DNA of 26,840 bases from positions 1-26,840 of IMG/VR virus record IMGVR_UViG_3300007819_000003. One strand, 5' to 3'. Positions 858 through 26,798 of this stretch are shown here, in pieces. Origin of the DNA: a virus. Made by a program: the position numbers and the translations under genes. The notes beneath the pieces were generated by a model. The model worked only from the letters and a program-made list of their open reading frames with translations. It had not been told where the DNA came from and did no database searches. Each line of letters starts with the position of its first letter. Position 1 is the first letter of the stretch.

Positions 858-2450
858 TCAGACCTGAACAAGCAACTCGATAATAACACATCCCCCAGCA
901 GCATCGCCGCCCTTTGAGCCAATCAGCCCCCCGCCACCAGCCGCGCCATAGCCCAGGCCGTTAGCCCCACCAAGACCCGTTCCACCGCTCGCGAAAGTCC
1001 TTCCTGAGCCGCCAGTCCCCCGTGGAGTCGAGCCACCAGCTCCGCTGACATTCACATCACTTCCTGCGTATTCGCCAGCGACTCCAGCATCGCTGCGTTC
1101 CTGAATTGTTGCCTCTAGATTGAGGCCTGTGAAGTCAGTGGTCACGACGCCTCCGAGCCCAAATCCCGCGCCCGTGCCGGAGTTCTTCTGTCCGCCCAAT
1201 CCGAGTCCAGCAACTATGAAATCAACTGAGTTGAAGGTTAGCTTGCTTGCAGCATTTCCGTCGTTGCCTTTCGCTCCAGCCACGCCCGTGCCGCCATTCG
1301 CGCCGACGTGGCCAGTGATATTCATGGAGTTATCAAAGCCATAAACAACGCCCTCGTAATAGCCGCCTGCGCCACCACCTTGCCCCCCTCCGACATTGCC
1401 TCCGTCAGAGCTGCCTCCGCCGCCTCCGGGACCAATGACAGTGAATTTAATCCGTGTCGAGGGCTTCACTGCATCTGGGATGTTGAAGGTGAAATCTCCG
1501 TCATCAGTAAATACAAACACTCGCTGAAGCGGTGCATTGACAACAGCCGCGACGCCAGAGGCTGGAGAATAGCTCCTGCATCGCCAATCGGTCGAGCCGA
1601 GGAATTCGAATTCCGCGCAGTCCCCTGCTGCGGTGGTGATGTTTTTTCCCCCAGGGAGAATCAACGCCGTGTCGTCGTTCGTGAGCTGCAGCACATCATC
1701 GAACTCGACTCGGAATATAGGCATCGTGAGCGATGCCGCGCCGCCGAAGCTATTGATTGTAGTCGTGCCCGTGATGAGCGCATTGTGCGTCTGAATCGTC
1801 CCCAGATCCACCAGAGACCCCGAGGCAATCGAGACCTGCGTGTTGACGCCATAGCCGGCAGCTGGGAACCACGCAATGACTTTCCAATTCCCCGCGCCTT
1901 CATATTCAACAAGCACACCATCCCCGTGGCTCATGTCGATGTTCTGCCCGCCAGGGAGAATCATCCCAACAGCATCATACACAAGCACCGCTGTCGAGTC
2001 GAATTCGACGTAGTATATAGGCTCGCTTGTGTCTGCAGAGTGTCCGAAAGACTGGATTGAGGCGGTGCCAGTTACAAGAGCGTTGTGAGTTGTGATTGTT
2101 CCGAGGTCCACATGCACCGCCGAGGCAATCGCGGTCTGCAGGCCAAAGCCTCCGGTAATTCCGTCATTAGGCACGAGACCATATGTCAGAGCATCCCAGA
2201 TCGTCGTCCCGGCGGAGTCCTTGACAATCTGGCGATATTGGCCGAAGCCATATATGAGCGCCGTCCCAGCCATGTCCAGCGGCACTGGATTCGCATTCGG
2301 CGTTGCTCCGAGAGGGTCCTGATATGTCGGGCGAGGCGTCAGCGTCGCCGGCTCATACATGCCAACGCTTCCGCCGGCAAGCGGGTTGCCGTTCGCGTCG
2401 AGAAAACACTGGCGTCCATTTGGCAGCAGCACCTGCGTGATCGTGGTCAT
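858..2450 (-). CDS. tail fibre / receptor-binding protein with duplicated domain and Gly-rich tip
   Basis: This is a 530-aa protein. Residues 1-100 (LPNGRQCFLDANGNPLAGG, then VKDSAGTTIWDA) match the N-terminal virion-attachment layout common in phage tail fibres and spikes. Residues about 105-200 and 205-300 are two copies of one domain, spaced exactly 100 residues apart. Both share the pattern VDLGTI-THNAL-TGT, SFG, PI--VEFD, ILPGG-NI and -GD. Residues about 337-530 form a Gly-rich domain opening with VIGPGGGGGSSDGG and ending in a hydrophobic strand, as in phage adhesin tips. The start is the ATG in an ATGA overlap with the ejection-protein stop; the open frame extends further upstream only inside that gene. 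It has four cysteines. It is most likely the host-recognition fibre of the virion. Confidence 0.85.
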   Translation of the reverse strand: MTTITQVLLPNGRQCFLDANGNPLAGGSVGMYEPATLTPRPTYQDPLGATPNANPVPLDMAGTALIYGFGQYRQIVKDSAGTTIWDALTYGLVPNDGITGGFGLQTAIASAVHVDLGTITTHNALVTGTASIQSFGHSADTSEPIYYVEFDSTAVLVYDAVGMILPGGQNIDMSHGDGVLVEYEGAGNWKVIAWFPAAGYGVNTQVSIASGSLVDLGTIQTHNALITGTTTINSFGGAASLTMPIFRVEFDDVLQLTNDDTALILPGGKNITTAAGDCAEFEFLGSTDWRCRSYSPASGVAAVVNAPLQRVFVFTDDGDFTFNIPDAVKPSTRIKFTVIGPGGGGGSSDGGNVGGGQGGGAGGYYEGVVYGFDNSMNITGHVGANGGTGVAGAKGNDGNAASKLTFNSVDFIVAGLGLGGQKNSGTGAGFGLGGVVTTDFTGLNLEATIQERSDAGVAGEYAGSDVNVSGAGGSTPRGTGGSGRTFASGGTGLGGANGLGYGAAGGGGLIGSKGGDAAGGCVIIELLVQV

Positions 2451-11202: not shown

Positions 11203-12426
11203 TTACGGCACGCTGTCCGCAACCACAACCGCCCACTCCGGCCGAACCCAGAGCCATCCGAACAGTACATCCAACCTCGAGACGAACTGGTCTGTGAGGG
11301 TGATGTAGTCCGAGAGGAATCTCATGGAGATTCCGTCGTAGACTTCGCGATCGACCTCATGAACGCCCTTGGGCATCGGCAAGTCCGCCGTGACCATCGT
11401 GACCGCCTCGGGAGCGAACGCCAAGTTCTTGCGGTAGTTCTCACCGCTCTTGGAGACCGGAGTTACCGCAGCTCCGTTCGCCGGAGAGGCCGTGACAGTC
11501 TGGTATTGCACAGCATTGCCGGCCACAGGCGGCACAATCGCAGGGTAGATCGCCAGCGCAGTCGAGCCTGTTGGAGCAGCTGCAGTGAGCACAAACTGCG
11601 CAAGGGCGCCATTGTCCATGTCCGTCACGCGATTGACGCTATTCACGCCAGCAATCGTGACAATACCACCCTGGACTAGCGGCCCCGCCGTGGCGTTCAC
11701 AACAAGCGAAAGCCCCGTCTGATTCGCACCATTCACCGTAGGTGCCGTGACCCAAGCTCCCGTGAGATGCTTGATGACGGTCTGATCCATCTTCCAGTCG
11801 AACCCAAGGGTGTCCTTGGAGATCATTCCGGTCTCGTATTGCTCGCCGATTTTCACCTGCGGATTGAACAGGCCCTTGAGCGAGTCGACAGTCTTCGCCT
11901 GGGTGAACTGATCCATGATGATCTGCCTGCGGGCTTTCGGAGCGGACTGCGCGTCGAGATACGCCCCCGCGAGCAGCCACGTGAGCGCCACGGGCGGAAT
12001 CACTGCACCCGTGTTGTCCGTGTTCGAGACGTAATTGCTGACGCCACCCTCAGAGCCATTCATGATTGTCTGGGCGACGTTGCCGGCGAGCTTGTTCACC
12101 ATGGGCTCAAGCACGCGCTCGGAAAAGTCATCGAGCTTGAGCTTGCGTTGAGCACTGGTGAAGCCCACGTCCACATGCCGCTGTGTGGCGATGCTTATCG
12201 CAGTGTTGGTTTCGTTGGTGTCCTGGACGCTCAGCCCCGGTCCGTCCGTGACTGTATAGTCATTGGGCAGACGGATCTTGAGCGTGTCGCCAATCTTCGC
12301 ACCATCAACTCCGAACTCGGAGTCATACTGCCTGTCCAGGCTCATGATGAAAGCATTCGTGTTTCGAAACAGCATCACAGCTTCTCGCGTGATCTGAATC
12401 GTGGTCAGAAGCTGATTGCCAGCCAT
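11203..12426 (-). CDS. major coat protein, P22 gp5-like
   Basis: This 407-aa protein forms the icosahedral shell. The N-terminal MAGNQLLTTIQITREAVMLF, the DTLKIRLP strand, the QRHVDVGFTSAQRKLKLDDF region and the later LLAGAYLDAQSAPKA-RR-I segment are characteristic of P22-type coats. The length is near P22 gp5 (430 aa). A Thr/Ala/Val-rich block around 225-310 (NATAGPLVQGGIVTIAGVNS) is in the place of the inserted domain of that family. There is no cysteine. The ATG has GAGG about 10 nt upstream. The gene is preceded by the largest non-coding gap in the window (174 nt), which holds a hairpin, and follows the scaffold gene as in P22. Confidence 0.9.
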   Translation of the reverse strand: MAGNQLLTTIQITREAVMLFRNTNAFIMSLDRQYDSEFGVDGAKIGDTLKIRLPNDYTVTDGPGLSVQDTNETNTAISIATQRHVDVGFTSAQRKLKLDDFSERVLEPMVNKLAGNVAQTIMNGSEGGVSNYVSNTDNTGAVIPPVALTWLLAGAYLDAQSAPKARRQIIMDQFTQAKTVDSLKGLFNPQVKIGEQYETGMISKDTLGFDWKMDQTVIKHLTGAWVTAPTVNGANQTGLSLVVNATAGPLVQGGIVTIAGVNSVNRVTDMDNGALAQFVLTAAAPTGSTALAIYPAIVPPVAGNAVQYQTVTASPANGAAVTPVSKSGENYRKNLAFAPEAVTMVTADLPMPKGVHEVDREVYDGISMRFLSDYITLTDQFVSRLDVLFGWLWVRPEWAVVVADSVP

Positions 12427-13813: not shown

Positions 13814-16033
13814 TCAAACCCTCCTGTAATTCGACATTGCAGCGAAATCTCGCCCGTACGCCTGCCCATCAGCGCCGAATTTCACCCCCTGCTGCTTTGG
13901 AGGCTGTTGGAACTCAAGCGGAAGCCGTGCCTGCCCCATCGAGCTGAGTGCCGGCTCGCTCGCATCTGCTGCGGGAGTCACGTCGATTCCGAGAGCTTCT
14001 CGAAGCGTATCCTGCACAAGGGCTTTCAACTCTCCTGCGTCCATGGCCTGGTCTCCGATGACTTTGAGCCGCGCAGTGACGGCATTAAACGCATCAATGA
14101 GCTTCGCCTGATCCTTACCCTTGAGCTCCAGATCAAGCTTGGATTTGTCCTGCAGCAACGTGACAATGCTTTCCTGCAGAGCACTGATGCGCTGCTGCAT
14201 GGCTTGCTCCTGCGGGGTCGGACCCTCGCCTTTCGCCTGCGGCGGCAGCATTCGATACAGCCTCTCCGCGGCGATCTCGCTCATCGGGAAGTCCCCCGAG
14301 CGCAGCAGCAAATCCCCCAAAATCGGAATCATCTGTGGGGCTTGCCCCAGCAGCTGCGACAGCGCCGTGAATGCCTCTTGGCGCTTCGTTCCCCAATCAG
14401 GCCCAACATCTGCAATGACCTCATAATCCCCTACAGAGGGATTGAAAATCCGCTGGAGCGCCTCTGAGTTCTCCTGCTGGACTTCCTGGTAAGCTTTCTG
14501 GGCTCCGGGGTCGATTTGAACCTCGATGGTCTTGCCATCCTCCTGGATTATCTGGAGAATCCGCGGGGTGTCATAGATATGCGGCGCGAGGTCCTTGATG
14601 ATTTTCGCCGTGTAGCGCACCCCTATGGCGAGGGCATCCACAAAATGATACGTCGAGGTATCGGCTTGTCTCTGACGCTCCCCAATGGCCTTCGCAGAGC
14701 GCTCGTTCCCTGGCGCTCCCATCGTCGCGGCATATTGCCCACTGGCGACAGTAATCTCATCCGAGGCAATTCGCATTCCCTCGATGCACAAAGGTGCCGC
14801 AATCGGCGGCTGATTCCGCACCGGCGCCGCAATAGGCTTCCCATCTTCCGAGAGCGAATTATACAGCAACACGGACTTGTTCTGAATATTGCTCTCGTTC
14901 CAGTCCTTCTCATGATCCTCGATCGCCTCGGCCGGGGCAAGCCAGGGGGTTTTTGTCTGCAGCGCGCCGTATTCGACAGCCGAGCTCGAGAAATAATTAT
15001 ACATCCTCTGGGGGTCCTTCAGATTCCTCACGTGCCCTCTGCGATCGAAGACATTATCGATGATTGTCTCCTCTCCCGAGATCTGCACAATTGGAATGTA
15101 TTTCCCAGGATAATCGCGCTTCTCAACAAGCTTATCCCCGACGATGAAATACCACTTCACATTCGCCCGCAGCACATCCCGCTTGCGCGTCTTCCCATCG
15201 GCCTCAACCCTTTCGAGAATTTCCTTGGGCATTTCGCTCTTATAGACCATCATGGGCTCGGGAGAGTTCTCCATGAAATACGCATACAGCGTATCAGGAG
15301 TCATCTCCTGCCTGTAGAATTCACAGACTCTGATATGGTCCTTCGTGACCCATTCAGTCCCGCCCTCCAAGGAGAGCTCACTCGGAAGCTCCTTGAATTT
15401 CGGATACTTCTTTGCGAAGAGCTCCTGCGGTACGTCCTCCGTAATGAAGCCGAATTTGGCGTCGCTGCGGTCCGGCTCCTTCGCGTCCATGTCCAGGAGT
15501 ACGGACCAGGGGTTTTTCACCTGCCGGATGTAGATTTCCTGATCGAAGCTCGCAGCGCTGACATATTCGCATTTGACGATCCAGAACCCGAAGCCCATCT
15601 GAACCATGAAGCTCGTCGCATTGTCGTAGCACGCCTGAGCGAGGCTTTGCGCCTCAATATGCCTGGAGATGCCGTTCCAGATCTGCGCGCTCTGCGCCGT
15701 GGCTCCATTCCCCACAGGCCGGAATTTCATCGAGGGCTTGTTTTTCTTCGCGTCATTTGTGATTTGCAGACAATTCTGCCGGACCTTATTGATTGTCAGA
15801 ATCGGCTTATCCGACTCCGGTCCACCCATCGCCGTCAGCACATCCCCCGGCCACTGATAGTTGTTCTCCGAATCGCCATTGGCGAACTTGTAGTCCTCAA
15901 GCGCCACCTGCCGCGAAGCCTGCTCCCAGTCATAACATCTCTGCCATTTCTCCTGGGCGTCTCGCACCACAGATTCCTCGAAGGTCTCGTCTTCTTCGAG
16001 CTCGTCAGCGACGCCGAGCATTTTCTTGCCCAT
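13814..16033 (-). CDS. portal protein, P22 gp1-like
   Basis: This 739-aa protein would form the dodecameric DNA gate at the capsid vertex; the P22 portal has 725 aa. Family-typical segments are visible: the early DYKFANGDSENNYQWPGDVL, then KPILTINKVRQNCLQITNDA, a region with KNKPSMKFRPVGNGAT, and NPWSVLLDMDAKEPDRSDAK. The segment ASGQYAATMGAPGNERSAKA is followed by GERQRQADTSTYHFVDALAI. The C-terminal quarter is Gln-rich and helical (EQAMQQRISALQESIVTLLQ), probably the wing/barrel part. The ATG lies 3 nt after the terminase stop with GGGGAG 7 nt upstream. TerL-portal-scaffold-coat is the standard P22 order. Confidence 0.93.
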   Translation of the reverse strand: MGKKMLGVADELEEDETFEESVVRDAQEKWQRCYDWEQASRQVALEDYKFANGDSENNYQWPGDVLTAMGGPESDKPILTINKVRQNCLQITNDAKKNKPSMKFRPVGNGATAQSAQIWNGISRHIEAQSLAQACYDNATSFMVQMGFGFWIVKCEYVSAASFDQEIYIRQVKNPWSVLLDMDAKEPDRSDAKFGFITEDVPQELFAKKYPKFKELPSELSLEGGTEWVTKDHIRVCEFYRQEMTPDTLYAYFMENSPEPMMVYKSEMPKEILERVEADGKTRKRDVLRANVKWYFIVGDKLVEKRDYPGKYIPIVQISGEETIIDNVFDRRGHVRNLKDPQRMYNYFSSSAVEYGALQTKTPWLAPAEAIEDHEKDWNESNIQNKSVLLYNSLSEDGKPIAAPVRNQPPIAAPLCIEGMRIASDEITVASGQYAATMGAPGNERSAKAIGERQRQADTSTYHFVDALAIGVRYTAKIIKDLAPHIYDTPRILQIIQEDGKTIEVQIDPGAQKAYQEVQQENSEALQRIFNPSVGDYEVIADVGPDWGTKRQEAFTALSQLLGQAPQMIPILGDLLLRSGDFPMSEIAAERLYRMLPPQAKGEGPTPQEQAMQQRISALQESIVTLLQDKSKLDLELKGKDQAKLIDAFNAVTARLKVIGDQAMDAGELKALVQDTLREALGIDVTPAADASEPALSSMGQARLPLEFQQPPKQQGVKFGADGQAYGRDFAAMSNYRRV

Positions 16034-16036
16034 CTT

Positions 16037-17461
16037 CTATCTCCCCATCCATCTAAATTGCCCACCTGAGCGTCGCCCGCCACCGTGCTCATACATCTCT
16101 CCATTCATCACGGCTTCTTCGAGATCTCCCTGCATCCTCGCGCGGATCATCTCGACAGAGGGCTTCGGCAAGCGCCTGCCAATGCCAACATAGCGGAACG
16201 AATCCGCGCCATGAGAATATTCGTCGTGTACGGGCACCCGCGAGAGAGTCCCCTTGTCATTATCCACAATCTCGTAGCGATAATGCGAGAGAGCCTGCAC
16301 ACCATCGCTGCAGCGGTCTTTGTCAAAGTAGCAATTCGGGAACATCGTTCGCGCGGCATTGATCCCATCAGAGAGACTCAATCTCGGCAAGACGCGGACA
16401 TTTTTGCGCCCATACACCGCGACCAGCTGCTCCTCGACCGAGAGCTTCGTGCCGAGCTGCTTTGCCTTGGCATCGTGCGGGAGATTGCACATGCCATAGA
16501 CGTATCGCTGTCCCTTGCCATTTGCGGATTTGTCATCATGCCCAGCTCGTGAGCGCCGGGCCTGGAGCCACTCTAGATAATGATCCAGGGACTTCTGAGA
16601 GTTCTCATAGTAGTCGATGAATCTGAGCTCGAATCCAACCTGCTGGGTAAGCCAAATCGCGGTCTTGTCAGCATGGCCAAGATCCCAGGTTGTATCGACG
16701 GGCCTCACCGGCTCATAGGGCACATATCCAATTCTCCCCGAGGCTCGCGCCGCGCGGAGCTCCTCAGCATATACCGCTCCCGCGAGGATGAGTTTGGGCT
16801 CGCCTTCCCAAATATTCAAATAAGCATCGAAATCTTTCACTCTCATAGTTTCCATCTGTTTTCTATTCACAGCTGTAAACCACGGATTATCTCGCCAGAG
16901 AACCTTCCGAACAATCGCGTCATCGGGAGTGTTATTCACAAACAAATCATAGATATAGTCCGTTTCAAGCTCTGGATTGAAGCTAATCCAGATCTCACTC
17001 CCATCCATTCGCAGCGTCGGATCGAGCTTCTCGAACGAATCCTTCAGCACACTGTGACCTTCTTCGATCCAGCAGCGTTTAATCCGCGCGTAGGACTTGA
17101 TCTTGTCGATGTTCCCGTGCAACCCCTCGAAGAAAAACACCGTATCATGTTCACGATGACGAATCTCAGCTTGCTGGACATCATACAGATAATTCATCTT
17201 GAGCTCTGTAATCTCATCTGCAAGCGTCTTGTGAACAGATTGCTTAATCGAAACCTGATATTCACGAGTACACATTGTACGTTCAGGGCTTGCTGCACCA
17301 AGCATCAATAACGCCCGCGCAAAATTCACAGTCTTCCCAGCGCCGCGCCCCCCATACGCGACTTTGTAGCGCACAGGAATGCCTGTCTCTGGCATCTTGT
17401 TCTCAAACAAGAACCGGAATGATGCAGGCCACTGTCCTCCGACTACGTTGGGCTCATTCAC
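16037..17461 (-). CDS. terL: terminase large subunit (packaging ATPase/nuclease)
   Basis: This 474-aa motor protein pumps and cuts DNA during packaging. The N-terminal ATPase has a Walker A GGRGAGKT at 37-44 and a Walker B-like IKRCWIEEGH at 127-136 with the catalytic Glu pair. SEIWISFNPELETD at 155-168 fits the coupling motif. The C-terminal RNase H-type nuclease has candidate acidic residues in TTWDLGHADKTAIW (Asp260, Asp265), in NLPHDAKAK (Asp330) and in EYSHGADSFRY (Asp420). The length is close to P22 gp2 (499 aa). The start is GTG, in a GTGA overlap with the upstream gene, with GGAG 9 nt before it; the nearby ATG is out of frame and quickly stopped. No small subunit is directly upstream. 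Confidence 0.95.
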   Translation of the reverse strand: MNEPNVVGGQWPASFRFLFENKMPETGIPVRYKVAYGGRGAGKTVNFARALLMLGAASPERTMCTREYQVSIKQSVHKTLADEITELKMNYLYDVQQAEIRHREHDTVFFFEGLHGNIDKIKSYARIKRCWIEEGHSVLKDSFEKLDPTLRMDGSEIWISFNPELETDYIYDLFVNNTPDDAIVRKVLWRDNPWFTAVNRKQMETMRVKDFDAYLNIWEGEPKLILAGAVYAEELRAARASGRIGYVPYEPVRPVDTTWDLGHADKTAIWLTQQVGFELRFIDYYENSQKSLDHYLEWLQARRSRAGHDDKSANGKGQRYVYGMCNLPHDAKAKQLGTKLSVEEQLVAVYGRKNVRVLPRLSLSDGINAARTMFPNCYFDKDRCSDGVQALSHYRYEIVDNDKGTLSRVPVHDEYSHGADSFRYVGIGRRLPKPSVEMIRARMQGDLEEAVMNGEMYEHGGGRRSGGQFRWMGR

Positions 17462-17805
17462 GCATTTGGACTCCGCTTATTCCCCGGATACGGATACGAA
17501 TTCACCGGGAGGGGCTCCAGCGCACCCGAGCCAAATTGCGCCGTCGCCAGCGAACTCGTCAGCAAAAACCCCTCCTCTGCAAAATACGGAAACGCCACGC
17601 TGTCCAAATACCCACCATACCCTCCGGGAGCCGACGCCGCCCCAAGCACAATACTTGTGATGTTTCCTTGACCCTGGCCTAAAAACGTCACTGTCAAATC
17701 CGCCGCGTCTTGGCATTGAACAAACCAGAACCCCACCTTCGCCGGAAGCGTACATACAAGCCTCCCCACTGCCAAATTCGTCGCCGTGCCGAGCCCTACA
17801 GTCAT
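17458..17805 (-). CDS. small hypothetical phage protein upstream of terL
   Basis: The product is 115 aa. The first half looks like beta strands (RLVCTLPAKVGFWFVQCQDA, then DLTVTFLGQGQGNITSIVLG). The second half contains Gly/Tyr-rich and Pro-rich parts (APGGYGGYLDSVAFPYFAEE, ending in NSYPYPGNKRSPNA). It does not resemble a small terminase: there is no helix-turn-helix and no coiled coil. It more likely belongs to the fibre or decoration genes before it. The ATG start has AGGAG 7 nt upstream. It overlaps terL by GTGA, so terL translation is probably coupled to it. I do not recognise the family. Confidence 0.65.
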   Translation of the reverse strand: MTVGLGTATNLAVGRLVCTLPAKVGFWFVQCQDAADLTVTFLGQGQGNITSIVLGAASAPGGYGGYLDSVAFPYFAEEGFLLTSSLATAQFGSGALEPLPVNSYPYPGNKRSPNA

Positions 17806-17815
17806 CTCATATCTC

Positions 17816-18139
17816 CTATGTCACCAGCAAACTAGCCCCGAGGCTAGTCAACGAATTCGAATCGCCACGTGCAAGCAGCCGCGCGACTTGTGCAATGCCA
17901 TCGCTAATGCCGATCTGATTTGCCGAAGCATCAACCTTCACAGCAATAATGTCCCTGTAGCCAGGAACAATGCTCGCTGGATTCATCGTCATAGTGAAGC
18001 CACCGCCAGAGGCATCCAACAGCAGTATGCCATCCGCGGATGTGATTGACTTGCTCCCCGTCCCATGCGTGACTGTTCGAATCGGGAGCACAACTCCCCC
18101 TCCGCCGCCTCCAGGCTGTGTCGGCTGTCTCAGGGTCAT
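17816..18139 (-). CDS. small fibre- or decoration-like beta protein
   Basis: This 107-aa protein begins with a short Pro tail and a run of six glycines at 10-15. A compact beta domain at about 20-80 follows (KSITSADGILLLDASGGGFT, TMNPASIVPGYRDIIAVKVD, ASANQIGISDG). This S-x-DG--L-LDA-GG-FT-T-NP----G--D---VKVDASAN pattern is common in short domains of phage tail fibres and decoration proteins. It has no signal peptide and no cysteine, unlike the four genes upstream of it. The ATG has GAGG 7 nt upstream and sits 9 nt after the stop of the large beta-helix gene. A role as a small virion or fibre accessory is inferred. Confidence 0.65.
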   Translation of the reverse strand: MTLRQPTQPGGGGGGVVLPIRTVTHGTGSKSITSADGILLLDASGGGFTMTMNPASIVPGYRDIIAVKVDASANQIGISDGIAQVARLLARGDSNSLTSLGASLLVT

Positions 18140-18148
18140 CTCTCTACC

Positions 18149-21100
18149 TCAGTGTTGAACGCACATGTAATTGACATGCTGACCAGTTTGTGCAGTTTCT
18201 GTAATTGTGATAGCTGTGGTCGAGATTGCATAGACGAATGAGGCGACAGAAGTCTGCGGGCTGACTACACAGAACGGCGCATTTGTCTTGCCGACGTTGA
18301 AGGTTATGATGATTGAGGTGGCTGACGTTCCACCCGTCACCTCGCCAGCGTTATCCGTCGAGCCCAAGGCTATAGTGGGTGAGCCGGTTCCCGTGACGGC
18401 AGGAGCCGAACCGTAGAACTTGAGCGCCTCCAACTGGCTGAATAGCGAGTTGAACCGACTGCATTCTTGGGCCGTGCCGGACGAGCCGATTGGGGTGCAG
18501 CCGAGAGTCTCGTCATGCCCGTGGTTTGTCGCGGACTGATTCTCCGCCGCCACGCCTCTGATGTATGCCTCGCTATTTGCGGGGACGGATACGCCATCGT
18601 AAGACCAGGAAGAGACCGAATTGACCGTCTCGCCAGATTGAACAGCGGTCGGGGATGCGTTGGTGCCGTCCCGACGAACGCCTTTGAAAGCCATTGCGGC
18701 GGCGTAGGCATCGCCCTCAATCGTCGCCCCATTTCCTGCATCGTTGCTGACGGTCTGAATTCCGGCGCTCGCGCTAGGCGCTGGGGCGGCGCCCGTGTTC
18801 AAGTTCACAGTTTGCAGGGCGCTGTAGACGCAAGGCCGACTGACCGGACAAAGAACATTCGTCCCGCTGGTGCCAATCACGGTCGCCAGCACCGCGCCTG
18901 CCACTACGGATGAATACCGAACCGTCGTTCCGGGCGCTTGCGGGACGCCCGTGGCTGAGGTAATCGCGTTGATCGTATCTGCGGTGTCGATGCTCCCGTA
19001 CACCTGCATGGTGTTCGTAGATGCATTGGTGAGCGTCTGGTCAAACCCTGCTGCGCCGGGCCGCAACATTATGCCAGCGCCATCGGAGGCGACGCTGTTC
19101 ACGCGGACGTAATTGGCCGTGACTCTCGTGGCCGCTGCCTGTCCGCCGCCAACGGTCGCTGCGATGGAGTTCTGCGTCGTCCCCTTCGGGCTGATCGGCA
19201 TTGAACCGGCGATGAAATTATTTCCCGAGCCGGAAAGGAGAGCGTATGTCGAAGACGACTGCCCGAGCAGATAAGACGACGGGAAGTCATTGGCCAAGAA
19301 TTGCGCGCTGCGCAGATCGTCAGGGATAAAGAACAGCCCGTTCACGATACCGGAGTTGCCAATGAGCGTGATGCTGTTCTTCTTAGCACCTCCAGGGCTT
19401 GCCACATCCAACATCGTCTTTTGCAGGCCCGCACCCTTGGGACCGACAATCGTATTGTGGCAGATGACGTTGCTGCTCGTGCTGGAACTCGATTGCGAGA
19501 GATCGAGAATGCCGCCGAAGTAGTAGAGCCCACCGCTGCAGAATTTGTTCTGGCCCACAGTGCCGTTAGAAGCATCGGAGCCGTTGAATACGATGCTGTG
19601 ATGCGTCTGGTCCTGGAGCGCGTTCTGGTCGTGGCAGGCGACGCCTTCGATATCGACATCGTTCGAGCCCTTATCCAGCTCCGCGCAAATCTCGCTGCTG
19701 AGAACATTCAGGTTCGAGATGCGGACGGCGTTGACGTTTTGTAGCTGGAGCGCTGCGCCCGTGCGATTGTTCGCATAGAGCGCAACTGCCCCCGTGCAAG
19801 CAAAGTGGAACGTCGCGCCCGTGGCCGCAGGCGTCGTCAGGTCGGTAACGCCCGAACCGTCAGGCGGGCAGACGGTGTAGCTGCCTCCATCCGCGATATC
19901 CGCGGTGACGACTCCAGTGCTTCCGTCAATCGCGCTAACAACGAGGTCTGCATCATCGTCCGTGACAACCGTTCCGTCAGTCGGCCGGAGATGATCGCCC
20001 AGGACGTAACCGGAACCAGCAGCGGCTACCGCATCCGCCGTGATGCTCGTCACGCCCGTAGCCTGATCCGTGATCGTGATGGTTTCGGTCGGAGCCGAGC
20101 TGCATGTCGCATTCAGAGGATTTCCGCTCGCATTCATCATCCAGACGATGCCGTAATAGGACTCGCGGAACATGATCTGCGCAGCGGCGGGGATGCACGC
20201 GCCTGCGATAAGTTGCGTCGGCTGGACCTGATTTATCGAGGTGAGGGACAGGCCTGTGATTTCATTCGACCCCGCTGTGACGGTCACGCCCGTAAAGGCT
20301 TTGCCCGCGAGGAAGCCGGAGTCCGAGCCCTGAAGATCGTAATCTGATGTATCGACAACCGTCGCGACCCACCCCCCTTGTGCAGACTGGTAGGGCGTCG
20401 TGTTGATCAGCCAGATTTTTTCGCCGGTCAGAGCACAATTAGCTGTGTTGCATGGCGTAGGAAGGTGAATACGAAGAGCGCCAGCACCATTGTCCGCTGC
20501 TGTGGCAAAGGGGATGTTGATCTGGTTGACAGGCCCGCCCGTGCCAGCGCGCGTCCCGAAGGGCGCCTGTACGCCTCCGGCGTCGAAAATCATCCCTCCA
20601 GCATTTGTCTTGAGAAGCTTGTCGCGCTGGTTGCAATCTGTCTGCGCAGGCTGAATCCAAAATGTGCGGCCAGCCCCTTGCAAAAAACACGTCGCAAAGC
20701 CAACGACCATGCTTGAACTGACGCCGGAACCGTCCCCATTGAAGGTGACGGCGGTTCCTGTATAGGCGGCGGCGCGGGCATAGTTGCCTTGAGACGTAGT
20801 GGGCGGCGCAACCTGAATTGTGCTGCGGATGAGCGGGCAATCCACCCAGGAATTTGCGCTGAGGGTAAGCCCGCCATTGCTGGTGAGCGAGATCGAGTTC
20901 GGAAAATTCCGGTAGTCATTGTTCGTCGGCTGCGTCGCCGGAGGGCCAGGGCACCAAAGCTTAATCCCCGAGGGGACAGTATGCGTTCCAATGGCGTAGC
21001 AGCTTCCCTCAGCCGTGCCATCAAGACGGATAACATGCACACCTTGCGCAAGTGCTGCAGTCTCCGCATTCGTCAATGCAGTCGTCGCATTCGTTGTACA

Positions 21101-23893
21101 ATCCGGCACGGCTCCAAAATCCAGAATCGAGAGCGACCTGTCGCCGAAATTCGCCAACGTAGTCGGAGTGCTCGCCCCTGTTGGCGTAAACGCCCCGGCA
21201 ATAGTCCCGTCCACCGAGCACTGCCATTTCATCGAGCCCAGCTGACTCAGCGTCGGTGGAGTTCCGGCCTGATTTGTCCCGGCGAAATAATTCCCACATC
21301 CGCTGAGTGCATAAATCGCATTCTGGTTCTCATAGAGCACGTCTGTGACCTGGGCATTGAACCCATTCCAGGACATCTGCCCTGCATTCCCAGAGACATA
21401 GGCAAAGCGATTCACCCCCTTGTTCTGCACGTCCGTAAGCGCCGGAGCTCCGTGCAGCACTTCGACGACATTCTCGCTCACGTCGGTCGTATTCGCCGTG
21501 ATTGACGTGAATGAGGCACTCGCATTCGCGGAGGTCACATTCGTTGGAATGATCTGCGCGCCATTCACATACGCCTGACACGACGAGAAGAACTGCCCAC
21601 ATGCAAGAACCTTCGCCGAATTCGCCCCCGTAAGCTCCAGCGTGATATATTGCAAATCGAGCTGATTTCTGCAATCTGTGTCTGTTCCAAGGGTCTGGCA
21701 CATTGCGACTGTGAGCTTGCCAGTAACCGTCCCCGTTCCGCCGTCTGTGGCCCAGCCAGCGGTCGAGCCCACAATCGAAATGCTACTCTCGACAGCTGCC
21801 GACACTGTCCCGCTCGTGGTCATTGCATTTGGAGAGCTCTCATTCAAATTCCACTGGTCATTGATGATTGTCTCTGAGCCCTTCGTATAGCCATTGCCCT
21901 TGACGCTGACGTAGTCCGAGGAGCCGAAGTTATACGTCCCGACTACATCGTGGCGGTCAGTCTCGCCATTTCCATCATTATGCGCATCGGTCGTGAGAGC
22001 ATTGTTCGAATTCCCAAAAATCCACCAATAGCCGTGGGAGTAACAGAACGCATTAAGCTGCCTCCACCCCGCGACTCCATTCGAGAAATAGCACGCTGCA
22101 GCATGTGCCCCACGCGACGGCGGCAGAGCCTGGACGAGTTTCCCCACATACGAGTCGCCTGTGACAATGCGCTCGTCGCTGTTGAAAAACGCGCATGTAA
22201 GTTGCGTATGCCCGTCGCAGGTGCCCTCGGAGGTGAAAGTCCCTCCGTCGAATTTGACCGTCCCATCAGTCGCCGCAATCGTCGGCGGGAGCGAGACAAA
22301 GACCTCGCCAATGTACCCGTCGAATCTGTCGGGGCCTTTCGCATTCGGCACAATCGCGACGACTGTAGTTCCCGCCTGAATTCCGCTCGATCCATTATCC
22401 GACACAATCATCCCAGGACGCAAATTGGAGATGTTCCCAGATACGATCTTCAGCAGCCCGCAGCCCGCAGCACATTGCGTTGTCGAGACTCCGGCGACGC
22501 TCGGCCCCGCTGCCCACGTCGCAACCATCTGCATCTGCGTTCCGCCCGTCGAATATGACGAGCCCTTAATCGTAAACGTCGCCGAAGTCGAGCTCGATGC
22601 CGTCACCACAATCGGCTTATTCGATGCATCGCAACCCAAAGCATTCGCGTGGCCCCCGGCGACTATGGGATTGAAATTTGCCATGAACACTGCATAACTC
22701 GCCGCATCTCCATTAGGCAAAGTCGTCGAGCTGTGCAACAGCGTCCCAGGCCACCCTGTTGTCTTATGCGCGCCGCTGTTCCAATTCGCCAGCCCGACCG
22801 TCACCGAGCATTCAACCTCCCCAAACGAATTCGTCGTCCCCGCCGCGGCCATGCCAGTAACGCTATAGTAGATCTCATTACAAATCCCCGCCGAATTATC
22901 CCCAGAGAAGCTCGTCGGCGCGCATGTCGCCCCAAACGCATTCGGCTGCTTATTGAGAAATGGTTCGCAGTCAATATGATCCGAGTCCGATTGCCCGCCG
23001 CCGTTCTCCCCATACATGCAAACATCCCCGTCCCCCCAGAAGTAGCTCAAATTCATATGGTCGGACTGGACGAAGCTGTAGCAAACATCGAAGCCAAAGC
23101 AGCCAATATGGTCAATCTGTGCCCCTTTGACCTGGGTGAGTTTGAGCGCCGTATCGCCGGCGAGGGGCATATTCGCGCGCATGGCTTCGCCATCAGCATA
23201 CGTCAACGGAGGAGAGGCAAAACTCATGCCGCTGAATTGGCTCACCTTGGAGGAGTCTGCATACCACTGCGAGTCAAACACGCACCAGTGCAGCCCAATT
23301 CCGTCGTGATCATTCGTGGGGGCATACGATGCTCCATGCGCCAGATAAACCGTCCCCGGCAACCCCACATAATATCCACTTGAGGTCTGACTCACCGAGG
23401 TCGCTCCGCACGAGAGACTCGTATTCGCCGGGGGCACGAAAGAGCTTGCCCAGAAGACGCTCACCCCATCAGTTGTGAAATTGACAATTCCTTGCGCCAG
23501 CCCCGCTGCCATTGCCGATCGCAGCACCCCGACCGAGTCAGTCATGCTTGTGATATGTGCGCTCGCATCATAGATCGAGCCACTTGTGATGCCATATTGC
23601 TCTATGTGGCCGTTGAAATTCGTTCGGATGTATGTATTCCCTGCCCCGTCCGCGAGACACGAGCCGCCATCGGGCACGCAGGGCGTATCCGTCAGCACAA
23701 ACGTTCCCTCGCCCCCGTCCTGCTTCGTGTAATATCCCGAGAGCTGGACTTGGGGAGAGAGCGACCAGTCCGTCCCGGCGGCGGTGAATGCCTGGACGTT
23801 CTTGATTTGGATCACGGCGATTGGATTGCTCGCCGCCATTGCTGAGCTCGCCGAAATCACCGCGAGCGCCAGAGAGAGGAGGAATTTTCTCAT
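18149..23893 (-). CDS. exported 1914-aa double beta-helix tailspike-like protein
   Basis: It starts with a Sec leader (MRKFLLSLALAVISASSAMA, cleavage near residue 20). Module 1 opens with LSGYYTKQDGGEGTFVL, the entry of a pectate-lyase-3-like fold, and runs to about 900. Module 2 starts near 915 with LSILDFGAVPDCTTNA, a second entry, and continues as right-handed beta-helix repeats (VRISNLNVLSSEICAELDKG). The C terminus has a fibre-type domain (about 1750-1830, FKGVRRDGTNASPTAVQSGE) and a final STDNAGEVTGG domain ending in YMCVQH, both common in phage fibres. Hand count gives 46 cysteines. The ATG at 23893 is chosen over one seven codons earlier because GGAG lies 8 nt upstream and the leader then begins MRK. 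It may bind or cut polysaccharide; no active site was identified. Confidence 0.85.
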   Translation of the reverse strand: MRKFLLSLALAVISASSAMAASNPIAVIQIKNVQAFTAAGTDWSLSPQVQLSGYYTKQDGGEGTFVLTDTPCVPDGGSCLADGAGNTYIRTNFNGHIEQYGITSGSIYDASAHITSMTDSVGVLRSAMAAGLAQGIVNFTTDGVSVFWASSFVPPANTSLSCGATSVSQTSSGYYVGLPGTVYLAHGASYAPTNDHDGIGLHWCVFDSQWYADSSKVSQFSGMSFASPPLTYADGEAMRANMPLAGDTALKLTQVKGAQIDHIGCFGFDVCYSFVQSDHMNLSYFWGDGDVCMYGENGGGQSDSDHIDCEPFLNKQPNAFGATCAPTSFSGDNSAGICNEIYYSVTGMAAAGTTNSFGEVECSVTVGLANWNSGAHKTTGWPGTLLHSSTTLPNGDAASYAVFMANFNPIVAGGHANALGCDASNKPIVVTASSSTSATFTIKGSSYSTGGTQMQMVATWAAGPSVAGVSTTQCAAGCGLLKIVSGNISNLRPGMIVSDNGSSGIQAGTTVVAIVPNAKGPDRFDGYIGEVFVSLPPTIAATDGTVKFDGGTFTSEGTCDGHTQLTCAFFNSDERIVTGDSYVGKLVQALPPSRGAHAAACYFSNGVAGWRQLNAFCYSHGYWWIFGNSNNALTTDAHNDGNGETDRHDVVGTYNFGSSDYVSVKGNGYTKGSETIINDQWNLNESSPNAMTTSGTVSAAVESSISIVGSTAGWATDGGTGTVTGKLTVAMCQTLGTDTDCRNQLDLQYITLELTGANSAKVLACGQFFSSCQAYVNGAQIIPTNVTSANASASFTSITANTTDVSENVVEVLHGAPALTDVQNKGVNRFAYVSGNAGQMSWNGFNAQVTDVLYENQNAIYALSGCGNYFAGTNQAGTPPTLSQLGSMKWQCSVDGTIAGAFTPTGASTPTTLANFGDRSLSILDFGAVPDCTTNATTALTNAETAALAQGVHVIRLDGTAEGSCYAIGTHTVPSGIKLWCPGPPATQPTNNDYRNFPNSISLTSNGGLTLSANSWVDCPLIRSTIQVAPPTTSQGNYARAAAYTGTAVTFNGDGSGVSSSMVVGFATCFLQGAGRTFWIQPAQTDCNQRDKLLKTNAGGMIFDAGGVQAPFGTRAGTGGPVNQINIPFATAADNGAGALRIHLPTPCNTANCALTGEKIWLINTTPYQSAQGGWVATVVDTSDYDLQGSDSGFLAGKAFTGVTVTAGSNEITGLSLTSINQVQPTQLIAGACIPAAAQIMFRESYYGIVWMMNASGNPLNATCSSAPTETITITDQATGVTSITADAVAAAGSGYVLGDHLRPTDGTVVTDDDADLVVSAIDGSTGVVTADIADGGSYTVCPPDGSGVTDLTTPAATGATFHFACTGAVALYANNRTGAALQLQNVNAVRISNLNVLSSEICAELDKGSNDVDIEGVACHDQNALQDQTHHSIVFNGSDASNGTVGQNKFCSGGLYYFGGILDLSQSSSSTSSNVICHNTIVGPKGAGLQKTMLDVASPGGAKKNSITLIGNSGIVNGLFFIPDDLRSAQFLANDFPSSYLLGQSSSTYALLSGSGNNFIAGSMPISPKGTTQNSIAATVGGGQAAATRVTANYVRVNSVASDGAGIMLRPGAAGFDQTLTNASTNTMQVYGSIDTADTINAITSATGVPQAPGTTVRYSSVVAGAVLATVIGTSGTNVLCPVSRPCVYSALQTVNLNTGAAPAPSASAGIQTVSNDAGNGATIEGDAYAAAMAFKGVRRDGTNASPTAVQSGETVNSVSSWSYDGVSVPANSEAYIRGVAAENQSATNHGHDETLGCTPIGSSGTAQECSRFNSLFSQLEALKFYGSAPAVTGTGSPTIALGSTDNAGEVTGGTSATSIIITFNVGKTNAPFCVVSPQTSVASFVYAISTTAITITETAQTGQHVNYMCVQH

Positions 23894-23901
23894 TCGAGAG
23901 G

Positions 23902-23905
23902 CTCC
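23902..23905 (-). promoter_or_regulatory. ribosome binding site deciding the start of the large spike gene
   Basis: On the minus strand this reads GGAG, 8 nt before the ATG at 23893. The alternative ATG at 23914 directly follows the previous stop and has no good site, so the leader most likely starts at MRKF. Confidence 0.55.
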
Positions 23906-23914
23906 ATTATTCAT

Positions 23915-25027
23915 CTACTGAAATCCAAAAGCTGCACCTGTCGCGGCATTCCATTGAGCCGAGCACGGCACTACGCCATCCGCGAACACCAGAACCCCGG
24001 AGAGCCCCGCACTCGCGGCGAGGCCATTCACAGTGCTCAGCTGTCCCGGCGGAATCAGCGCGTCGAATTGCCAATACAACTTCCCCCTCGGCACATCTGG
24101 CACAAGCGCAAGCTCCGCATTGAACTGCACAGCTGCGTCACCATTCGTCGAGGCCGTGTAGATGCCACATTGATCCACGATCTGACATGCGGTATTCGGG
24201 TCGAGGCCGTTCTTGAAAAACGCCCCTCCATTAAGCGGATTATTGTAGAGCCCGACTTTGAAATTGTAGGGCTGGCCATTTGGATCGAGCTTTTGATGGA
24301 CATTCGCAACGAGCCACGCCAAATCCGCATTGGCATTCGCGGGAGAGCAGACAATTCCGCTGAATCCGCAGCCATGCGGTTCCCAATCGGCCAAAATCCC
24401 GAGCTTCGGAATCGTCAAATCGACAAGCCGCACATCCGGCAGCGGGACTACGTCCCACATAAACTTCCAACCCGACCCCGCGTCGGTGTTGCTGCACAGC
24501 GTCGCCGCGTTCGTGAGAATCTGCGCGTGTGTCATGACCTGCAGGACATGCCCTGGGTCGAAATAATTGATCGGGTCCATCCAGCCATTGTGAAATGGCG
24601 TCCCGTGCGGCATATTCGGCCCGCGCCCTATTGTGTATGCTGCATATGCCAGAAACGCCGCCCGTTCAAACCCCGGCGTGCTATATTTCACGCCGCAGTC
24701 CACACCACCGACCTGAATATGTGGCTCAAACGGATTCGGCTTGAGCGTGTTCGTCGTATCGACGCGGGGCACCCAGATTTCATGCTCCGCTGCAACCTGC
24801 GTCTCGACCGAGGTGACACTGCCATCGAGATAGAAAGCCGCTGCGATAGTCTCGGGGAAGTATTGAAACCCCATCTCGCCGTTAACAAGTGGGGCGCGCC
24901 CTGGCATGGTGACACTCCATCCCGAAGGCGTCACCCGCGAGAGATCACCCTGCGTCCAGCACGTCTGCGCATGGCCAAGAGACGTGCTACAGACAAGGGC
25001 GAGGAGGATTCGAAGAAAAAGTTTCAC
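23915..25027 (-). CDS. exported protein of unknown function, eight mature cysteines
   Basis: This 370-aa protein has a clear Sec leader (MKLFLRILLALVCSTSLGHA, cleavage after residue 20). The mature part has eight cysteines (23, 111, 178, 220, 227, 281, 287, 355), an even number that suggests disulfides. Alternating strands such as KLGILADWEPHGC (208-220), FKVGLYNNPLNGG (256-268), KLYWQFDAL (316-324) and LSGVLVFADG (342-351) could form a TIM-barrel-like hydrolase, with Glu216 in DWEP as a possible catalytic acid. I did not recognise the family, so this is speculation. The start is GTG in a GTGA overlap with the fibre gene, with GGAG 8 nt upstream. It stands between two exported fibre-like proteins and may act on the same surface polymer. 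Confidence 0.8.
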   Translation of the reverse strand: MKLFLRILLALVCSTSLGHAQTCWTQGDLSRVTPSGWSVTMPGRAPLVNGEMGFQYFPETIAAAFYLDGSVTSVETQVAAEHEIWVPRVDTTNTLKPNPFEPHIQVGGVDCGVKYSTPGFERAAFLAYAAYTIGRGPNMPHGTPFHNGWMDPINYFDPGHVLQVMTHAQILTNAATLCSNTDAGSGWKFMWDVVPLPDVRLVDLTIPKLGILADWEPHGCGFSGIVCSPANANADLAWLVANVHQKLDPNGQPYNFKVGLYNNPLNGGAFFKNGLDPNTACQIVDQCGIYTASTNGDAAVQFNAELALVPDVPRGKLYWQFDALIPPGQLSTVNGLAASAGLSGVLVFADGVVPCSAQWNAATGAAFGFQ

Positions 25028-26370
25028 TTGTGCCGCTCCAATCTGGAGACGCGCTGTAGTAAATTATCGTTCGCAGCTTTTAGCGTAATGATCTCCTGCT
25101 GTAGTCCCTTGATTGCCGCAACATTCAGGCTCGTCACCGAGTCCGCATAGCGCACGCCCTGAAGTTTGCCCTTCGGATCATACCCGACAAGGCGTTTATC
25201 GACACTCTCGACCTGATGCGCGCCAAGGCCCGCGTGAACGGCATGATCAGTCTGATGGCTTCCCGGCTTGTAGCTGAACCAGAACGGCTTGAGCTTCATC
25301 TCCTCGGCTATGGCCTGCATCGGGTCGATGTTGCCCTGGATGTTCTTGGTCTCTTCAAGCGAGAGTAGACATGTCGTCGTCGTATCGACGGTGAGATTGC
25401 CTGTGCCAGTCGTCCAGCAGACTGTGCCGGTTTGAGCGGCGCTGGAGGACGCGATTGTCGGCATCGCAACAGTTGTGCCAGTAACACGCACCATTTCAGT
25501 TGAATTGGCAATGATCGAAACATCGTTGGATGTGTCTGCGCCGATTCCCGCAGTGGTGCTTTGCTTGGTTGGGAGAAGTGTAGGAACGGTGCCAGATGCA
25601 GCAACATTACGCAGTTCGTAGCTAGCGCTCGCCCCCAGCCCTAGGCTGCTTCCGGTAGACAAAATGTCTACGCCGCTAGTCCCGCCAAATTGCGCGCTAT
25701 CTGCCCCTAAGGCTCTATTATTTGTGCAAGTGACATTTGTGCTGCAAATTGGAACCTTGAAATAACTCCCAAAATTGTTTGTGATCGTCGTCGAGCCGGT
25801 GGCCGTGAGTGTGCTCCCTCCCCAAAGGTCCGCGTAGTTCGTCGCAATTGTCCCGCTCGATGTCGTGTCATTCAAGGTCGCAGCGACATTCTTATAGCGA
25901 ATGCCGTTCGTGCCGAAGATGCCAGAGGCGGAGATGTTGCCGGAGAGGCCAAATGACGTGCTGGAGACGACAAGCGGCCCTGTGAACGTAGCACCCGAGA
26001 GAAGGGCGTAGAGCGAAATGGTCGCAGAGCACCCCGTGCCAGAATCCGTAAGTGCCGCGCAATTGTGCGTTACATAAGTTCCATCCCCGCGAAAATATGT
26101 CGTGGTGTTGTTCGGCCATGCCGGAAGTGCACCAGAGAGCGAGGCTGTCGCCACGTTGATGTCTGCGGTGAGTTGCGTATTCGTCAGGCCACCGAATGCA
26201 CCAGAGTTGTTGTATTGGACTTGTCCACTGGAACCTCCGGGAGTGCCCCCACCGCCTCCAACAGAGCCCATCTGCCCATAGACTTGAATCGGAAACTCAC
26301 CCAGCTGCTGCGCATTTGTCGAGTTCGCCCACAGTCCTGCCAACAGCAATGCTGCCGCTGCGCGCCTCAT
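25024..26370 (-). CDS. exported fibre-like protein with S74-type intramolecular chaperone
   Basis: This 448-aa protein has a leader (MRRAAAALLLAGLWANSTNA, cleavage after 20), a Gly-rich hinge at 35-50, and phage fibre repeats (GQVQYNNSGAFGGLTNTQLT, then YFRGDGTYV). Ser/Thr-rich beta segments lead to a C-terminal domain (about 335-448) of the S74 intramolecular chaperone type: SLEETKNIQGNI, KLKPFWFSYKPG, GLGAHQVESVDKRLVGYD and VRYADSVTSLNVAAIKGLQQ, ending in a coiled coil. Ser337 is the candidate self-cleavage residue. Such domains trimerise fibres and are then released. Six cysteines lie in close pairs (104/114, 209/215, 318/334). The ATG at 26370 overlaps the previous stop (ATGA); a start nine codons upstream would push the leader inward and is less likely. 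Confidence 0.82.
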   Translation of the reverse strand: MRRAAAALLLAGLWANSTNAQQLGEFPIQVYGQMGSVGGGGGTPGGSSGQVQYNNSGAFGGLTNTQLTADINVATASLSGALPAWPNNTTTYFRGDGTYVTHNCAALTDSGTGCSATISLYALLSGATFTGPLVVSSTSFGLSGNISASGIFGTNGIRYKNVAATLNDTTSSGTIATNYADLWGGSTLTATGSTTITNNFGSYFKVPICSTNVTCTNNRALGADSAQFGGTSGVDILSTGSSLGLGASASYELRNVAASGTVPTLLPTKQSTTAGIGADTSNDVSIIANSTEMVRVTGTTVAMPTIASSSAAQTGTVCWTTGTGNLTVDTTTTCLLSLEETKNIQGNIDPMQAIAEEMKLKPFWFSYKPGSHQTDHAVHAGLGAHQVESVDKRLVGYDPKGKLQGVRYADSVTSLNVAAIKGLQQEIITLKAANDNLLQRVSRLERHK

Positions 26371-26798
26371 TTGTAATACGAGATTGTTGCTGTACATGTC
26401 GCACCACTCGCTGATATGAGTTGAATCGGAAGCTGTTGCACCGCATACGCGATGATTGAATTCGCAGAGAGCGCGTTCCCCGCAGCATTTGTCGGGGCTG
26501 TGCCATCATCCTGCCAGAAGAGACACACCCCAGAGGTGTTGTTCGTGCCCTGGGCCTGAATGAGAGCAAATTTCGCCCCTGTCGGAATCGTCAGCGCCGT
26601 TGCCGAGGCAATGCTGAGTCCGCGCTGTGTTCCAGCTATGGCCGTCAAAAGTGGCCTGATGCAATTCGCCGGAGCCTGTGGATCACACGCCGAGACGCTC
26701 GAATCTACTGTATAGGGATAATTCGCACTCGCTGGACACGCCCACAATCCGGCCCCGAGCCCCAGAATCATGGCCGATGCAAAAAGCAGCTTTTTCAT
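26367..26798 (-). CDS. exported small phage surface-type protein
   Basis: This 143-aa protein begins with a strong Sec leader (MKKLLFASAMILGLGAGLWA then CPASA, likely cleavage after residue 25). The mature part has four cysteines (38, 46, 92, 135). Its body TALTIPTGAKFALIQAQG, then LFWQDDGTAPTNAAGNAL and the ending TATISYYK resemble small beta proteins often found in phage structural regions, where A-x-IQ-x-G, W--DGT-PT and a final YY recur. Those relatives usually have no leader. A Cys at residue 21 after LWA is a weak lipobox-like feature; Trp at that place makes lipidation unlikely. The ATG has GGAG 5 nt upstream. It is the first gene of the exported block and overlaps the next by ATGA. 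Confidence 0.8.
   Translation of the reverse strand: MKKLLFASAMILGLGAGLWACPASANYPYTVDSSVSACDPQAPANCIRPLLTAIAGTQRGLSIASATALTIPTGAKFALIQAQGTNNTSGVCLFWQDDGTAPTNAAGNALSANSIIAYAVQQLPIQLISASGATCTATISYYK

Follow-up and report, generated by a model that had tools for sequence, protein, structure and literature searches.

Leader-bearing spike- and fiber-like proteins in P22-like podophages and a possible two-compartment route of morphogenesis

Introduction

The assembly of tailed phages is held to be entirely cytoplasmic. The tailspike of phage P22 is reportedly produced and assembled without export. Signal peptides have nevertheless been described on some tailed-phage proteins: exported endolysins (Lys44 of phage fOg44 is one) carry a cleaved Sec signal peptide (PMC6116005), and a putative signal peptide has been reported for the pneumococcal protein PblB (PMC4508584). 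Regarding virion attachment, the N-terminal part of the tailspike of Xanthomonas phage PBR31 is an apparent virion-binding domain according to its authors (PMC10975493). In the open-access literature, we found no description of runs of leader-bearing spikes or fibers, or of an exported head-binding tailspike. Here, we analyze a stretch of viral DNA (26,840 nucleotides, hereafter the window) in which a sequence-only reading had noted four consecutive fiber-like genes with Sec leaders.

Results

Judged by its gene content, this 26.8-kb virus record derives from part of a P22-like podophage genome, since a P22-type portal and coat and the homologues of gp4 and gp10 are found in order. Its late gene set comprises terL, the P22-type portal, a scaffold, the coat, a gp4-like adaptor, a gp10-like head closure protein, ejection proteins, and a transglycosylase. 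All window genes are on the - strand, including the four genes, P1 to P4, which are present where they had been placed:

26367..26798, - strand: P1, 143 aa, putative leader and ~93-aa beta-sandwich domain
25024..26370, - strand: P2, 448 aa, predicted leader, Gly-rich fiber-like body, weak S74-like C-terminus
23915..25027, - strand: P3, 370 aa, predicted leader and body without recognized fold
18149..23893, - strand: P4, 1914 aa, predicted leader, large spike-like protein with a ~110-aa phage domain near the C-terminus
17816..18139, - strand: 107-aa leaderless protein, 10 bp after P4 (leader score -2.2; no family match)
17458..17805, - strand: 115-aa leaderless protein overlapping the terL start (leader score -3.6; no family match)
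16037..17461, - strand: terminase large subunit, terL (PF04466, E 3e-36)
13814..16033, - strand: P22-like portal protein (PF16510, E 7e-142)
11203..12426, - strand: major coat protein, phage type marker (phrog_283, E 1e-57)
858..2450, - strand: leaderless tailspike/fiber with N-terminal head-binding domain at 2178-2435 (profile A8, E 1.7e-40)

Contrary to the earlier description, the block does not immediately precede terL, being separated from it by two short genes without leaders (17816-18139 and 17458-17805). The P1 stop overlaps the P2 ATG by 4 nt (ATGA), the P2 stop overlaps the P3 GTG by 4 nt (GTGA), and a Shine-Dalgarno GGAG precedes both the P1 start and the inner P4 ATG, so that the start codons are supported by the overlaps (P1/P2, P2/P3) and by the Shine-Dalgarno sequences (P1, P4). 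P4 and the gene after it are spaced by about 10 bp or less. With these overlaps and this tight spacing, the P1-P4 block appears to be transcribed with the late genes rather than as a separate lysogenic-conversion gene. The last gene listed provides a contrast absent from the sequence-only reading: the window itself holds a leaderless head-binding tailspike (858-2450). Its start is most likely at 2450 (N-terminus MTTITQVLLPNG...) and not at 2810, the longest-ORF call (858-2810) being overextended.

Leaders were evaluated by a home-made scorer of the von Heijne type, with 46 signal peptides of E. coli as its training set; leave-one-out calibration on these gives a median of 20.8 and a lowest value of 7.7. 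The scores are 7.4 for P1, 22.1 for P2, 14.6 for P3, and about 22 (22.6) for P4, and none of the remaining 18 window genes exceeds 6.7, alternative starts included. Shuffled N-termini reach the real score in 0/5000 cases for P2, 8/5000 for P3, and 3/5000 for P4. The P1 leader, with 418/5000, is by itself not significant in this test. Hence, the claim of Sec leaders on all four proteins stands for P2, P3, and P4 (14.6-22.6), whose N-termini display the basic n-region, hydrophobic core, and A-x-A-type cut of a clear predicted Sec/SPI leader, and is only borderline for P1. The predicted leaders are as follows:

26724-26798: P1 leader, aa 1-25, predicted cut ASA/NYPY
26311-26370: P2 leader, aa 1-20, predicted cut TNA/QQLG
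24968-25027: P3 leader, aa 1-20, predicted cut GHA/QTCW
23834-23893: P4 leader, aa 1-20, predicted cut AMA/ASNP

No lipobox (L-[ASI]-[GA]-C) is found in P1-P4, P1 reading LWAC with a Trp at -2 and P2-P4 having no Cys at the cut. The mature parts all contain an even number of Cys residues (4 in P1, 6 in P2, 8 in P3, and 46 in P4).

Concerning the bodies, the P1 beta-sandwich domain (26370-26648, ~93 aa) belongs to a widespread family of small phage proteins. Its AF2 model, built with 33 sequences, shows blocks of residues 51-143 mostly with pLDDT >90; BFVD returns uncharacterized Caudoviricetes proteins and Foldseek returns no significant fold in the PDB. The closest P1 homologues, in L188 and L217 (38% identity), score high for a leader (20.9 and 16.5), whereas in the rest of the family (roughly 80 members) the protein mostly opens with the domain and lacks a leader. 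Repeated leader scores on an N-terminus beginning MGLKSTTVCL within this family were rejected as scorer artefacts. As an observation in its own right, this P1-type ~90-aa beta-sandwich protein (WRDDGTAPTASVG...LNVSYY; window 26370-26648, L211-L290) is very common in phages, with no Pfam or PHROG match among the members tested and no PDB relative. P2 had been read as an S74-chaperoned fiber: a weak positional match to S74 covers its C-terminus (about 25027-25365; E 0.013 in a one-sequence test), and the Pfam search reports no Peptidase_S74 match. The assignment of P3 as a beta-helix spike is not borne out, as it has no recognizable homologue by tblastn in phages or viral contigs, in the PDB, or by six-frame phmmer of the related loci, and single-sequence AF2 yields no usable fold. 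Small phage proteins encoded in L185, L008, and L013 resemble P4 residues 1559-1682 (about 18869-19240; E 1e-7 to 3e-4). P1, P2, and P4 have no match in named phages. The head-binding domain is absent from P1-P4, its sole copy in the window record being in the leaderless 858-2450 gene.

Three unrelated families of phage N-terminal domains contain leader-bearing and leaderless members side by side, and the site at which a leader is predicted to be cut corresponds to the start of the leaderless proteins. In the A5 family (GIYTNGLP...LPLTGNExIPADT), a leader occurs in 37/43 loci (36 by the scorer and L194 by eye), and the six leaderless loci start at M(S)G[IY], precisely the predicted cut position of the others. 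Within one clade of A5 fibers, dN/dS is 0.27 for the leader and a similar 0.18 for the adjacent domain, values which point to purifying selection on the leader. A second domain (xFxxGxRLxDGxxLN) displays the same pattern by eye, with a leader in L196 and L209 and none in L170, L177, and L182. The leader thus appears to be an add-on to virion-type domains.

The third family, of ~85 residues (LPNGxQQFxDxNGxPLAGG...), forms the N-terminus of the tailspikes of phage PBR31 and other named phages, and its profile A8 matches PDB 7eeq, "Tailspike head-binding domain" (E 3e-10). Exactly one copy is present in 14 of the 15 records searched, a count that rests mostly on fragment records, in which an additional spike without a leader could escape notice. 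In seven records (G002, with a leader score of only 8.8, G016, G017, G018, G022, G023, and G027), a leader directly precedes this single copy; the copy is leaderless in the window (858-2450) and in G024 (L190). This weakens the premise of the sequence-only reading that virion fibers normally have no leader and that leader-bearing ones are hence non-virion adhesins, decoys, or coats, since in these seven related records the only head-binding tailspike bears a leader. Exported proteins of the head-binding class, as predicted, therefore seem to keep their virion-docking domain. Two extra Cys residues that most leaderless forms lack occur in the head-binding domains of G002, G022, and G023. In the leader-bearing domains of L310, L311, and L314, two extra Cys (PAC/PTC...YCQ) missing in most leaderless forms suggest a disulfide inside the docking domain. 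A leader-bearing head-binding protein, L198:4410-5807, weakly resembles domain 2 of the Mtd tropism protein of a Bordetella phage (E 0.0034, below cut-off); a diversity-generating retroelement near L198/L201, a candidate prompted by this match, was rejected as no reverse transcriptase motif occurs in a long frame.

Cysteine parity was compared on families clustered by similarity, replacing a raw comparison without deduplication. Among Cys-containing fiber-like proteins, the mature Cys count is even in 33/35 leader-bearing families vs 44/101 leaderless ones (Fisher p 3e-8), and the Cys content is 1.42% vs 0.75%. Because this test had not been planned beforehand, it was repeated within the head-binding family alone, in a data set partly overlapping the first (L189, L198, and relatives): the count is even in 14/15 leader-bearing vs 45/103 leaderless groups (p 4.6e-4), or 13/14 leader-bearing groups without the doubtful L423/L429, which are probably leaderless, the scorer having been misled. 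This head-binding set includes 43 proteins scored as leader-bearing. When the leader itself has an odd Cys count, the mature part is still even in 7 of 8 families, as it is in P1 and P3. The even Cys numbers and the doubled Cys content suggest, as evidence independent of the leaders, folding in an oxidizing compartment outside the cytoplasm.

For recurrence, relatives were gathered with a portal alignment (80 viral loci and 80 loci from bacterial genomes); loci were sampled through the domains of interest, and the records are mostly fragments. A search for the closest relative by the portal alone found none. The suggestion that similar leaders may exist in other phage contigs holds: leader-bearing fiber-like genes lie upstream of terL in many of them, in runs of three to six (L185, L198, L201, L199, and L209), with six genes in L185 and three in L198 and L201. 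In eight Acetobacteraceae P22-like phages or prophages, leader-bearing genes lie instead between gp4 and gp10, and in three of these eight a leader-bearing GH66-type enzyme is located beside a leader-bearing fiber. These glucanases of the late operon are at L004:26403-28328, L091:16893-18851, and L099:16420-18345; the L004 gene is assigned to PF13199 (GH66, E 3e-84) and the other two are its homologues. Blocks of spikes and fibers predicted to be exported thus appear to be a recurrent strategy of P22-like podophages. L217 comprises a run of at least five leader-bearing genes in a record that holds no P22-type portal, so that leaders of this kind also occur beyond the P22-like phages. Two loci of a Bathyarchaeota MAG (palsa_989; L131 and L155) contain P22-like phage genes along with tandem paralogous leader-bearing 151-aa proteins, and are probably mis-binned phage. 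MW202520 (L003) is titled "Myoviridae sp.", yet encodes a P22-like portal, coat, and tailspike.

Discussion

We consider it fairly probable that P1-P4 are Sec-exported, SPI-cleaved, and disulfide-bonded spikes or fibers, and that the wider group follows a two-compartment morphogenesis with docking at lysis. P1-P4 would be late spike/fiber-type proteins made as Sec preproteins; signal peptidase I would cleave their leaders, and they would fold with disulfide bonds outside the cytoplasm. Heads and short tails would be assembled in the cytoplasm, exported spikes would mature in the periplasm, and finished heads and exported spikes would meet and dock at lysis. Across the wider group, the sole head-binding tailspike of a phage would often be among its exported proteins. 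The leaders, the cleavage register, the late-operon context, the Cys pairing, and the retention of the head-binding domain are read from the DNA and its translations. From these we infer actual export, disulfides, and docking at lysis, Sec export and disulfide formation being the best-supported steps. A phage program exporting fiber-like proteins, as the sequence-only reading had proposed, agrees with the alignment of cuts with leaderless starts, the dN/dS of the leader (0.27), and the Cys parity.

If the sole head-binding spike of a phage is exported, it must reach the virion from outside the cytoplasm, or the virion must leave without a spike. P22 spikes are said to be the last addition to the particle and to bind finished particles in vitro, which makes docking at lysis plausible. 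Two-compartment morphogenesis would be the most economical mechanism, and docking at lysis is its preferred step. For a large group of P22-like phages, we put forward tentatively, at somewhat short of an even chance, that the spikes are Sec-exported, oxidized in the periplasm, and attached via their head-binding domains only at lysis, the virions being completed outside the cytoplasm. Since the head-binding spike of the window is leaderless, P1-P4 of this phage may serve as accessory appendages or else be secreted as effectors, namely enzymes or adhesins acting on the envelope or matrix.

Taken further, the latter idea would make P1-P4 exported proteins that never enter virions and serve as depolymerases, decoys, or surface adhesins in late infection or in lysogens. 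The leaderless head-binding spike of the window, the lack of a known docking domain in P1-P4, and the GH66 glucanase adjoining a leader-bearing fiber in Acetobacteraceae prophages all speak for such a role, which we nonetheless hold to be rather unlikely: genuine head-binding tailspikes bear leaders in several related phages, and the P1-P4 genes are translationally coupled and packed into an operon running into terL. That the hydrophobic N-termini are instead uncleaved anchors or oligomerization segments, inside the virion or at the membrane, would suit the borderline P1 score and the relative L263, whose N-terminus is signal-anchor-like with no clear cut site; it is very improbable given that the cut motifs lie exactly at the start of leaderless homologues and that Cys parity is even after leader removal, not before. 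Chance, mis-called starts, or a bacterial or chimeric insert are less credible still: signal-like N-termini do arise randomly, and a score of at least 12 is reached by 9/451 core virion genes in the related loci (the hydrophobic ejection protein accounting for several), but two starts are fixed by stop/start overlaps, four such genes stand in a row, many independent contigs have the same arrangement, and the mature parts contain phage domains.

Should the spikes of these phages be exported and disulfide-bonded, as the preferred two-compartment scheme predicts, phage assembly would be split between compartments, and before lysis the envelope or matrix of the producing cell could itself become a target of the spikes. 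Annotation and recombinant production should then treat such spikes as secreted proteins. Leader-bearing relatives are present in named Acetobacteraceae genomes, and the prediction is cheap to test.

Comparison with Known Systems

Among the described systems, Lys44-type endolysins resemble what is proposed for P1-P4 in that they are late products kept outside the cytoplasm until the time of lysis; they differ in being lysis enzymes, not spikes or fibers, and in having no virion-docking domain. The streptococcal prophage adhesins PblA and PblB are phage tail-type proteins active at the bacterial surface. In their case, however, the host is Gram-positive, the leader concerns a single protein and by prediction only, and neither a leader-bearing run nor a head-binding domain is described (PMC4508584). 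Acetobacter phage phiAX1 (LC644973; PMC8566455) is a P22-like relative with leader-bearing late genes (BCZ75904 and BCZ75905) between its gp4 and gp10 genes. Passages of PMC8566455 on phiAX1 do not mention leaders. The position of the phiAX1 block differs from that in the window, and it encodes a different fiber family together with a GH66 enzyme. Lastly, P22/Sf6-type phages have the late-gene set, portal, and coat type of the window phage, and the P22/Sf6-type and PBR31 tailspikes (PMC10975493; PDB 7eeq) share their head-binding domain with both the leader-bearing relatives and the leaderless spike of the window. Unlike the leader-bearing relatives, these tailspikes start at the head-binding domain, without a leader.
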